The notes beneath the pieces are model-generated. The model saw nothing but the letters and a program-made list of their open reading frames with translations, searched no databases and was not told the origin of the DNA. A stretch of DNA of 64,000 nucleotides, from positions 124,001 to 188,000 of the forward strand of contig NZ_AQXT01000002.1 in assembly GCF_000376805.1 (NCBI RefSeq). The letters are read 5' to 3'. Below are positions 43,850 through 54,523 of the stretch, in pieces. The stretch comes from Henriciella marina DSM 19595 (lineage in GTDB: Bacteria > Pseudomonadota > Alphaproteobacteria > Caulobacterales > Hyphomonadaceae). The position numbers and the translations under genes were made by a program. How positions within the stretch are numbered: position 1 is the first letter of the stretch; every line of letters starts with the position of its first letter.

Positions 43850-45616
43850 TTAATTGTCCCGGCTTGCGGCCTGCGTTTCCGGACCCGTCAGCATTTTGCG
43901 GCGCAGCTTCCGGATCTGCTGCTTATCATCCTGCAGCAGTGTGATCGCGCGCTCCCACTGAAAACGCGCTTCGGTGCGCCGTCCCGTCATCCAGTAGGCA
44001 TCGCCGAGATGATCGATAATTTCAGCAAGGTCGGGCTCGATCTCTGCAGCAAGCTCCAGATAATAGACGGCCTGATCGAAATCGCCGAGTTTGTAATACC
44101 CCCAGCCGAGGCTGTCGGTGATCGCGCCACTGTTTGGCCGCAGCGACAGGGCCTGGCGAATGAGGTCCATGCCGCGCTCAAGGTGAAGCCCGCGGTCCAC
44201 CCAGCTATAGCCAAGATGGTTGAGGACCTCCGGCGAGGACGGGTTGAGCATCTTGGCCTGAAGCAGGTCTTCTTCAGCTTCCGGCCAGTGACCGAGGCGT
44301 TCGCGAAGGGCCCCGCGCGCATAGTAAAGACGCCAGTCGCCGAGGTTTTCGGCCTCATCGGCAGCAATGATCTCATTGAACGCGGACAGCGCGTCCTCGT
44401 CGGCTTCGAGGGCACGTAGAAGGTCTGCAATCTGGATTTTCAGATCGCGTTGCGGACCTTCGGTGAGGGTCTGCCGCGCGATGTCGAGTGCTTCCTCGTC
44501 GCGCCCTGTGCGATGGAGCGCCCAGGCAAGCTGGCCAATGGCGGTGACATGATAAGGCGAGCTTTCCGGGATCGCCCGCAGCATGGTGATCGCGTCTTCG
44601 CTGCGCCCCGAGCGGTCCAGTGCGTCAGCAAAAAGCGCACGTGCGGCCTGCAATTGCGGGTCAAGGCGAAGGGCGATCGAGTAATAGACGCCCGGCAAAT
44701 CATCGGCTGATTGCGCCGCCAGAGCCGCCGCGGGCACATAGATCGAAAGCGCAGCGCCTTCGCTGGCGCTAAGCCGCACAACGGGTAGCGGCTCGCCTGC
44801 CGTCAGACGTTCAAGCGCATCTGAAATCAGCGGATTGTGCCCGGTCTCTTCCAGATAGACCGATAGCGCGCTCAAAGCATGCGCGGTTTCACCCCGGCTG
44901 GCGAGCAGGCGCGCATAGCTTTCGGCCGCCGCTGCCGTCAACGTGCCGTTGTCCTCCAGCACGCCAAGCGTCTCCAGTGCTTCGTCATCCTGTTCGGCCG
45001 CCACTTCCATCAAGGCGAGCGAGTTCAGCATGATATCGCGCAGGTACGGATCATCGCCTGCCGCATCCATCAGCGTCAGTTCGGCCGTGGCAAGCTCCCC
45101 CCGACCAAACAGTGACCAGGCTTCCAGCGAACCAAGGACGAGCGCATAGAACGGGCCGGACGTGTCGCGCTTTGTAAGCCGCGAAACTTGCTCATAATCC
45201 TTCGAGGCGATTGCTTCGGCCGCCATCGCAAGCCGTGGAAGGCTCGACTGCTCAAGGAGTTTATCGCCGGCGCTCTCGGACACAGACAGGGCCAGCGGGA
45301 AATTATTGGCAAGCAGGGCTGAGAAGACCGCGCGCTCTGTAATGCTGGCGTCGCCGGGCCGGGCCCGCGCCACTTGAGCATACTTTTCAGCGGCTTCTTC
45401 GGGGTCATTTGTCAGGGAGGCAAAGCGGGCAATCAGAAAGTCGCTGAAGTCACTGGACTGCGAGGTCGCTTCGGCCTCGGCCTGCGCCACCGCGATCTCA
45501 TCGGCGGGGCGCTCACTGCCAGAAAGCGAAAACCCGTAGTCTGGCAGAGACGTACAGCCCGACAGGAAGGCTGCCATGGCCGCGAGAGTAGCAGTGAGAT
45601 GGCGCGCTTTGATCAT
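43850..45616 (-). CDS. TPR-repeat lipoprotein A
   Basis: A 588-aa lipoprotein: signal with lipobox FLSGC (Cys21), followed by a solenoid of tetratricopeptide repeats to the end. The C-terminal repeats (NHLGYSWVDRGLHLERGMDL, ITDSLGWGYYKLGDFDQAV, IDHLGDAYWMTGRRTEARF) form the region found in bacterial tetratricopeptide proteins of the cell envelope. It probably scaffolds envelope proteins. Immediately upstream of ispE (3 bases) on the same strand. It is clearly related to the next lipoprotein at 45721. Confidence 0.9.
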   Translation of the reverse strand: MIKARHLTATLAAMAAFLSGCTSLPDYGFSLSGSERPADEIAVAQAEAEATSQSSDFSDFLIARFASLTNDPEEAAEKYAQVARARPGDASITERAVFSALLANNFPLALSVSESAGDKLLEQSSLPRLAMAAEAIASKDYEQVSRLTKRDTSGPFYALVLGSLEAWSLFGRGELATAELTLMDAAGDDPYLRDIMLNSLALMEVAAEQDDEALETLGVLEDNGTLTAAAAESYARLLASRGETAHALSALSVYLEETGHNPLISDALERLTAGEPLPVVRLSASEGAALSIYVPAAALAAQSADDLPGVYYSIALRLDPQLQAARALFADALDRSGRSEDAITMLRAIPESSPYHVTAIGQLAWALHRTGRDEEALDIARQTLTEGPQRDLKIQIADLLRALEADEDALSAFNEIIAADEAENLGDWRLYYARGALRERLGHWPEAEEDLLQAKMLNPSSPEVLNHLGYSWVDRGLHLERGMDLIRQALSLRPNSGAITDSLGWGYYKLGDFDQAVYYLELAAEIEPDLAEIIDHLGDAYWMTGRRTEARFQWERAITLLQDDKQQIRKLRRKMLTGPETQAASRDN

Positions 45617-52189: not shown

Positions 52190-54523
52190 ATGGCTGAACT
52201 CCTCCTTGAACTCTTTTCCGAAGAAATCCCGGCCCGCATGCAGGCGAAGGCCGAAGGCGACCTGCGCGATGCGCTGACCAAGGGCCTGACCGAGGCCGGC
52301 GTCGAGTATGGCGATGTCGTCGCCCTGTCGGGGCCGCGGCGTCTGGCCGTTGCGATTGCCGGTCTGCCGGACAAATCGGCCGATGTGAGCGAAGAGAAAA
52401 AGGGCCCGAAGGTCGACGCGCCTGAAAAAGCGATCGAGGGATTCCTGCGCGGGGCAGGCCTCACCTCGATCGATCAGGCGCAAGTGCGGAGCGACCCCAA
52501 GAAAGGCGATTTCTATGTCGCCATACGCGAAATCCCGGGCCGTCCGCTGGAAGAGATCATTGCAGGCCTCGTGCCAGATATCGTGCGCGGCTTTCACTGG
52601 CCGAAATCGATGCGCTGGGGCCGCGGCGAATTGCGCTGGGTGCGCCCGCTGCAGCGCATCCTCTGCGTCTTCAATGGCAAGACCGTCGACTTCGAGATCG
52701 ATGGCCTGAAATCCGGCAATCAGACCGAAGGCCACCGCGTTCAGGGACGTGGGCCGTTCAGGATCACATCACTCGAAGACTATCGCCAAATTCTCCAGAC
52801 AGAGGGCTTCGTTGTCGTCTCGCGCGATGATCGCCGCCTGCTGATCGAGGATCAGGCGCATATGGTCTGCGCGCAAGCCGGGCTGGAGCTGGTTGAGGAT
52901 CGCGGTCTGCTCGAAGAAGTGACAGGGCTCGCCGAATGGCCGGTCGTCATCCTGGGGGAGATGGACCCGGCCTTCCTGTCGCTGCCGCCTGAAGTCGTGC
53001 AGCTGTCGATGCGCACGCACCAGAAATATTTCGCCGTCCGCAACCCGGAGACGGGCGAACTTGCGCCGAACTTCGTCGTTGTCGCCAATATCGAAGCCAG
53101 CGATGGCGGCAAGTCGATCGCAGGCGGCAATGCCCGCGTTCTGTCGGCACGTCTCGACGATGCGCGCTTCTTCTGGGACCAGGACAAGAAGACCCCGCTT
53201 GAGACGATGGCGAAGAAGCTCGCAACCATCGACTTCAAGAAAGAGCTGGGCACGATTGCCGACAAGGTGGAACGGGTCGCCGCACTGGCGCGAGAGCTCG
53301 CGCCAAAGGTCGGCGCTGATTCTGATCTGGCCGAACGTGCCGCGCGCCTTGCCAAGGCAGACCTCGTCTCCGGCATGGTCGGCGAATTCCCTGAGCTTCA
53401 GGGCCTGATGGGGCGGTATTATGCTCTCGAACAAGGCCTCAACAGTGGTGTCATCCCGGACGCGCAGCGATCCGGGACCCAGAGCAGCGAAGTCACTGGG
53501 TCCCGGACAAGCTCTGACGAGCTTTCCGGGATCACGAATTTGCTGGCAGGGCTGTCTGAGGCGGAGGTGCGCAAGATCGCAGATGCGATCGGCGACCATT
53601 ACAAGCCGCAGGGGCCATCCGATGCCGTGCCGTCAGAGCCGGTCAGCATCGCGGTCGCACTGGCCGACAAGCTCGACACGCTGGTCGGTTTCTGGGCGAT
53701 CGATGAAAAGCCGACAGGGTCGAAGGATCCCTTTGCACTGCGCCGCGCAGCGCTGGGTGTTGTGCGGATTGTGCTAGAGAATGCGGTCCGGCTTCCGATG
53801 AAGCCAACTTTGAAGGAGCATGCCTACATTCATGCCCGCCGACAGGCGAGCGCATTTATGGAAGCTGATCGATTGGCAGCAGCGGATTTGGCAACAAAGT
53901 CAGGTGCAAACGAATTAGTCGATGTCTTCGAAAAAAGCCCACATGGTCAGGAGAGTTCAGGGAGCATCGGAGATCTAGCATTCGGAAACGTGACGCATTC
54001 TTCTCCGTTGCTTGAGTTCTTCGCTGATCGCCTGAAACAATACCTTCGCGATCAGGGCGCGCGTCATGACCTGATTGATGCGGTCTTTGCCCTCGGCGAG
54101 GATGACCTCGTCCTGATCGTGAAACGGGTTGAGGCGCTAGCCGCTTTCCTTGAGACCGAGGACGGCGCGAATCTGCTGGCCGGCTATAAGCGCGCCGCCA
54201 ACATCCTGAAAGCCGAAGAGAAGAAGGATGGCGCGCCCATCGAGGGCAAGGTCGATCCATCCCTGTTCGAGCAGGACGAGGAGCGCGCGCTTCATATCGC
54301 GATCGAGACGGCCGCCGCCCGCGCCGATGCCGCGCTGAAGGCGGAAGACTTCGAGGCCGCCATGGCCGCGCTCGCGGAACTTCGCGGGCCGGTCGATGCG
54401 TTCTTTGACGGCGTGACGGTCAATGCCGATGACGCGAAGCTGAGGGCCAATCGGCTTGCGGTCCTCACATCGATTCGCGCCGCGCTTCACAATGTGGCCG
54501 ATTTTACGAAGATTTCGGGCTGA
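52190..54523 (+). CDS. glyS: Glycyl-tRNA synthetase beta subunit with two inserted segments
   Basis: A 777-aa beta subunit, about 80 residues longer than the usual ~690-700. It begins [17 protein letters not shown], has [12 protein letters not shown], the HD-like [15 protein letters not shown] and the C-terminal anticodon-binding-like [14 protein letters not shown]. It binds tRNA-Gly. Residues ~421-449 are encoded by a palindromic repeat at 53450-53535, and residues ~540-605 (about 53803-54006) form a second, lower-GC insert before [28 protein letters not shown] at 52190 begins the conserved sequence; the open frame reaches back to 51962. Confidence 0.95.
53450..53535. repeat. Palindromic repeat element inserted in frame in glyS
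   Basis: Two hairpins in tandem: TCCCGGA (53454-53460) with TCCGGGA (53471-53477), and TCCCGGACAAGCTC with GAGCTTTCCGGGA (53501-53531). A perfect 12-base inverted repeat joins them (53471-53482 with 53496-53507), and the ends match inversely with one mismatch. It carries no stop codon in the glyS frame. Confidence 0.8.

Follow-up and report, generated by a model that had tools for sequence, protein, structure and literature searches.

An in-frame palindromic repeat element in glyS of Henriciella marina, at a site that holds other repeat families in related species

The window analyzed here (the whole 64,000-nucleotide stretch of contig NZ_AQXT01000002.1 of Henriciella marina DSM 19595) carries glyS, which encodes the beta subunit of glycyl-tRNA synthetase (GlyRS). 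The glyS product matched the Pfam families tRNA_synt_2f (E value of 2.8e-183) and DALR_1 (E value of 9.5e-10) and had relatives in the PDB (7yse, 7eiv, and 8ie2). The features of this locus are as follows.

52190..54523, + strand: glyS, glycyl-tRNA synthetase beta subunit, 777 amino acids (Pfam, PDB relatives, intact frame)
53450..53535, + strand: palindromic repeat element, paired hairpins of the CGTC-tag type, in frame, residues 421 to 449 (pairing, fold, genomic family)
53454..53477, + strand: left hairpin TCCCGGA / TCCGGGA, arms 53454-53460 and 53471-53477
53471..53507, + strand: central perfect 12-nt inverted repeat TCCGGGACCCAG / CTGGGTCCCGGA, arms 53471-53482 and 53496-53507
53501..53531, + strand: right hairpin TCCCGGA / TCCGGGA, with inner stem AGCTC / GAGCT, arms 53501-53507 and 53525-53531
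53536..53575, + strand: non-repeat linker of ~13 amino acids, limits approximate (alignment; similar in G003, G025, and G013, less so elsewhere)
53810..54000, + strand: second hypervariable GlyS region, residues ~541 to 604, not repeat-derived here, limits approximate

An earlier note on this DNA had described the two TCCCGGA/TCCGGGA hairpins and the perfect 12-nt inverted repeat, and the coordinates of all of them were confirmed. The ends of the element, GTCATCCCGG (53450 to 53459) and CCGGGATCAC (53526 to 53535), also pair with one mismatch, and the whole unit therefore folds into a branched structure. Folding of positions 53445 to 53540 gave −49.5 kcal/mol, compared to a mean of −32.0 for shuffled sequences (z of −5.48), and none of 200 shuffles was equally stable. 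The pattern TCCCGGA-N10-TCCGGGA occurred exactly once in the window. When as many as 3 mismatches were allowed, it had 4 matches there, no excess over shuffles, so what stands above chance is the exact copy together with the whole-unit fold and not the loose matches. A repeat search within the window gave no second full copy, and an 82% match at 44546 to 44573 covered part of the right hairpin only. Three Rfam matches were all far below their gathering scores, and none was retained.

The element is read without a stop codon and encodes 29 amino acids, residues 421 to 449. The figure of about 29 extra residues in the earlier note holds for the repeat itself; the excess of the host GlyS loop over compact GlyS proteins is 42 residues instead, because ~13 linker residues stand 3′ of the repeat. 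In the AlphaFold model of GlyS (mean pLDDT of 88.7), residues 421 to 441 had pLDDT values of <50 and were flanked by helices at residues 406 to 417 and 457 to 469, in line with the loop location that had been envisaged for the segment. Alignment with Escherichia coli GlyS was interrupted at E. coli residue 421, which puts the insertion point between residues 421 and 422, and a passage of PMC8464048 assigns residues 341 to 540 of that protein to the HD domain. The insert is a loop of predicted disorder within the HD domain of GlyRS beta. Judged by sequence positions only, it falls outside the tRNA-contacting loop of that domain, since an excerpt of PMC9908026 places the contacting loop at ~473 to 482 and the insertion point is at ~421.

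Searches of the same genome showed that the element belongs to a repeat family. A DNA search gave 19 matches at an E value of ≤1, the glyS copy among them, and a pattern search gave 20, compared to 0 for a reversed control pattern. A covariance model built on 11 copies (7 intergenic copies and 4 from glyS of G000, G013, G021, and G014) gave at least 36 matches at an E value of ≤1 and at least 31 at ≤0.01, the latter merging to at least 17 distinct places; the search scored 150 of 2072 first-look candidates, and the count of places is therefore a lower bound. Over the 11 copies, 95.9% of stem cells were paired, and two-sided changes, which lie mainly in the right hairpin's inner stem, affected 19 cells compared to 6.4 in shuffles, in a test that is biased in favor of the structure because the structure was taken from the same alignment. 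When 22 places were checked for a containing open frame, the frame at glyS measured 857 amino acids within its locus and all others measured 264 or fewer; five frames of 185 to 264 amino acids, at four places, had no Pfam match at an E value of ≤0.01. Other genomic copies, on which the earlier note had made its reading depend, thus exist, and among the 22 places checked the glyS copy is the only one inside a recognizable gene. Several copies are clustered in ~750 bases at C2:276700-277460.

A 31-amino-acid peptide query, representing one frame of this one family, gave 38 matches in 18 of the 61 genomes searched. Five of these matches lay in frames of 737 to 874 amino acids, every one of them glyS. 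Candidates for the same peptide in frame in other genes were rejected: a 321-amino-acid frame (L264) had no Pfam match, a 197-amino-acid frame (L260) was antisense to a long open reading frame, and the rest were of 143 amino acids or fewer.

The corresponding site was then compared in 141 GlyS proteins, taken from 61 genomes and the best 80 further loci of GTDB species, with a few species represented twice. In 120 of them the form is compact, with 27 to 32 residues between the marker motifs; most of the relatives examined thus lack the segment, the outcome asked about in a check that the earlier note proposed. The other 21 have 24 to 49 amino acids beyond the usual 28 at the same site, all in frame and without a stop; L071 duplicates L044, which leaves 20 distinct carriers. 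Carriers made up 16 of the 61 genomes: 8 of 29 within the genus (counting the host), 1 of 8 from the rest of the family, and 7 of 24 from the rest of the order. What the earlier note did not see is that relatives have repeats of other families at this very site. Sorted by eye, the inserts comprised about ten palindromic repeat families and two non-palindromic inserts, assigned as follows.

CGTCATCCCGGA dimer: G000, G013, G021, G014, G012
TTCCCCCGC/GCGGGGGAA types: G003, G025, G043
CGTCATCCTGAGCG: L080
TTCATTCCCGCGAAGGCGGGAATCCAG: L144
CATCCCGACGAAAGTCGGGATCCAG: G055
CATCCTGAGG type: G047, G040
CCTCCCCACAAGGGGGAGG: G037
CCCCCTCAGTCGG type: G046, G050
CCCCGGATCAAGTCCGGGG type: G010
GC-rich: L145 (Frigidibacter, outside the order of the host)
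Without palindrome: G036, L089

Six families, that of the host element among them, were searched in the genomes that carry them, and each proved to be repeated there; the kinds found in L144, G037, G010, and L145 lay outside this comparison. Matches to the insert in the carrier's own genome numbered 21 for L080, 15 for G025, 26 for G003, 3 for G043, 18 for G055, 8 for G047, 3 for G040, 7 for G046, and 4 for G050, counts that take in the glyS copies and sometimes both strands of a palindrome. Thirteen of the 20 inserts folded more stably than every same-length window of the same gene. By this measure, control windows as stable as the insert numbered 1 for G014, 2 for G012, and 5 for G021, and the fold was not outstanding in L080, G010, G036, and L089 (12, 13, 24, and 56 control windows, respectively).

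A class-wide sample of 387 genomes gave GlyS matches in 329, the matches listed being the best, insert-free ones. A hotspot common to the whole class was rejected, as none of 30 reexamined genomes (weaker matches, apart from G417) had ≥20 extra residues. With 30 genomes of this sample read at the site, inserts seem to be concentrated in the host's order, L145 lying outside it. Two genomes of another family, G072 and G186 (L206 and L203), are longer by ~15 residues at this GlyS site, in a stretch that is not obviously palindromic. An open frame of 24465 amino acids around glyS in G315 was discarded as an artifact of masked bases (1039 N in a 3300-base locus).

GlyS varies in length elsewhere as well. 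The second variable region spans 37 to 172 amino acids between markers in the 141 proteins and is largely unalignable and mostly non-palindromic; a repeat origin for it in general was rejected, since its fold energy per length was not below that of control windows in most rows. L095 (Methyloligella sp. GL2) carries the palindrome CGTCATGGCCGGGCTCGACCCGGCCATCC in frame in this region. A further loop, past residue ~683 in the numbering of the window, contains in-frame palindromic repeats in L155 (G055; 629 to 669) and in L123. The glyS gene of G055 has a second copy of its own repeat in the C-terminal loop (41 nt, 90%), and the C-terminal-loop insert of Alkalicaulis satelles (L123) has exact stretches of 33 and 25 nt in common with the insert of G043 at the first site. 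Downstream of glyS in G012, C40:88046-88150 shows a short match to the glyS 3′ end (residues 743 to 777, 57%, one TAG), which is perhaps a decayed partial duplicate.

Several known repeats resemble the element in part. As described in excerpts of Di Nocera et al. 2013 (PMC3733652), CGTC REPs are alphaproteobacterial head-to-head dimers, mostly intergenic with some within open reading frames; the carriers named there include tRNA synthetase genes of E. litoralis and S. alaskensis, the excerpts leaving the synthetase unspecified, and same-site insertion is reported for recB of two Xanthomonas species, with different sites elsewhere. The repeat studied here is similarly interspersed and mainly intergenic (1 of the 22 checked places being in a recognizable gene), most of its aligned copies are head-to-head dimers, with single halves also occurring, and its unpaired tag at one end, for which TGTC and CCTC count as variants of CGTC, reads TGTC in the host glyS copy and CGTC in the G013 and G021 copies and in intergenic copies. 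It differs from the published description in its stem, which is the 7-bp TCCCGGA/TCCGGGA in each unit and not 8 to 9 bp starting with AT; the A preceding the left-hairpin stem faces a C, and AT pairs only between the outer ends of the element. Loops of 4 to 5 nt are described for CGTC REPs, whereas those here measure 10 nt on the left and 17 nt on the right and are longer in several intergenic copies (10 to 20 nt over the units, often with an inner stem of their own). A further difference from the excerpted account is that one glyS site is filled in many species by different families.

Rickettsia palindromic elements (RPEs) are, in passages of PMC10969869 and PMC3733652, repeated palindromes lying in frame in genes for housekeeping proteins, and about half of those in R. 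conorii are intragenic. The RPE-like architecture seen by the earlier note is apparent, in that the glyS element is palindromic, repeated, and in frame in a protein-coding gene, a likeness of behavior; the intragenic share differs (1 of 22 places checked, compared to about half as reported for R. conorii). Overlooked in that note, which knew of no such case in this lineage, were the CGTC REPs already described in frame outside Rickettsia (PMC3733652). GTAG REPs mobilized by RAYT, some of them intragenic by the same excerpts, share the paired-hairpin build; the GTAG tag is absent here. Another interspersed palindromic repeat of the same order is set apart by its reported strictly intergenic location. 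Intragenic REPs and RPEs are thus already known, and what appears new, no report of it having been found in the open-licence literature, is the recurrent filling of one glyS site by unrelated repeats.

We consider it highly probable that the element is a translated, in-frame copy of a CGTC-type REP-like dimer and that this glyS loop is a recurrent landing place for local repeats in the order. On this view, a copy of a palindromic repeat that is dispersed over the genome and built as a dimer of CGTC-tagged REP-like hairpins would have landed in frame in the HD-domain loop of GlyRS beta. To survive there, an insert would have to be divisible by three in length, carry no stop codon in the reading frame it enters, and meet a loop in which additional residues are tolerated. 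In related species, other locally abundant repeat families would have come to the same GlyS point. The loop may be favored mainly through tolerance, with one repeat later replaced by another in a loop already lengthened. The way the repeats move, and any function of theirs, we infer rather than observe. Of the 84 frames of 14 intergenic copies, 41 lacked a stop; a random insertion would stay open in ~16% of cases (the stop-free share times a one-in-three chance for length), compared to 20 of 20 observed, which argues for translation. Given this preservation of frame, the segment is probably translated as 29 mostly disordered residues.

How many times the site was entered is a separate matter, and a single ancestral insertion, spread and lost through exchange of glyS alleles among species and with the repeat later replaced in the loop, is a substantial possibility that nonetheless falls short of the probable. 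The linkers are alike in G000, G013, G003, and G025 despite two different repeat families, the flanks of compact alleles (GGYYAREQGE..) in close relatives are different as well, and the G012 element has its right half in common with G013 (43 nt, 95%) and a different left half. Against one ancestral event, the repeats of G037, G040, G046, G050, and G055, from other families of the order, and of L080, L144, and L145 are different ones, and a linker of this kind is missing from these carriers. Carriers are also as scattered as shuffled labels: on a tree of GlyS itself, in which within-gene recombination is uncontrolled (134 sequences, with 7 duplicate or truncated rows dropped and both variable regions masked), the presence of an insert in the 20 carriers took 19 changes, compared to a mean of 19.0 (range, 14 to 20) in 200 shuffles. 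Because alike linkers surround different repeats, the events were not all independent insertions, and 19 is not an insertion count. Replacement in an old lengthened loop or exchange of glyS alleles would account for part of the scatter.

The substitution pattern bears on whether the hairpin is retained for an RNA or DNA function in glyS (pausing, mRNA stability, or a protein- or gyrase-binding site), with selection on nucleotide structure and not on the peptide. Between G000 and G013, none of the 22 synonymous sites of the insert differed and 4 of its 64 nonsynonymous sites did; the flanks had differences at 126 of 354 synonymous and 46 of 1059 nonsynonymous sites (Fisher P value of 0.006). 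In four further, overlapping carrier pairs the ratio of nonsynonymous to synonymous differences also departed from that of the flanks (P values of 0.001 to 0.007). In all five pairs, insert pS was below flank pS (0/22 versus 126/354 for G000/G013). In three close pairs, differences were commoner at unpaired than at paired positions (1/54 paired versus 4/33 unpaired, 3/54 versus 6/33, and 2/54 versus 7/35; P values of 0.066, 0.077, and 0.026). No such bias was seen in the two pairs with G014 (11/54 versus 5/27 and 10/54 versus 7/27; P values of 1.0 and 0.56). Moreover, the linker of G000 and that of G013 are unusually alike too (93% window), so the low pS would also follow from a tract that the two shared or exchanged recently; and 120 of the 141 GlyS proteins do without any insert. 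We regard a retained RNA or DNA function as unlikely. Slightly less doubtful, and offered tentatively, is the idea that the HD-domain loop is a standing dock that, once lengthened, is refilled by whichever hairpin repeat abounds, the hairpin being kept and not the peptide, possibly as a useful mRNA structure or as an element that converts its own kind.

The earlier note had also spoken of an exapted copy. The same loop is used recurrently in an essential enzyme, as a useful adaptation of the GlyRS protein might be, but the families have no peptide in common and the segment is predicted to be disordered. The pN/pS comparison of carrier pairs revealed no peptide-level constraint on the insert: insert pN was not below flank pN in the five pairs, and all four G000/G013 differences are nonsynonymous. 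From these comparisons the peptide itself appears unconstrained, exaptation finds no support, and we think it very improbable. Intragenic hairpins that are bypassed or excised are known from other systems, but removal of the segment before or during translation, by hairpin processing or ribosomal bypass to leave a protein of normal length, is scarcely credible here, as each of the 21 inserts has a length divisible by three and lacks a stop, which removal would not need and which chance would give in ~16% of cases.

Palindromic repeats within reading frames are famous from Rickettsia, whose decaying genomes offer a ready excuse for them. Under the reading we favor, of an in-frame, translated repeat copy in a recurrently used loop, such repeats occur within an essential enzyme in genomes of free-living type (2.3 to 4.3 Mb), where one loop has taken up many unrelated families. 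Length variation of GlyS in this order should be read with the warning that it is repeat-derived. The natural series of compact loop, lengthened loop, and loops holding repeat A, B, or C would allow tests of how selfish hairpins get into proteins and replace one another, and of selection on RNA versus peptide.
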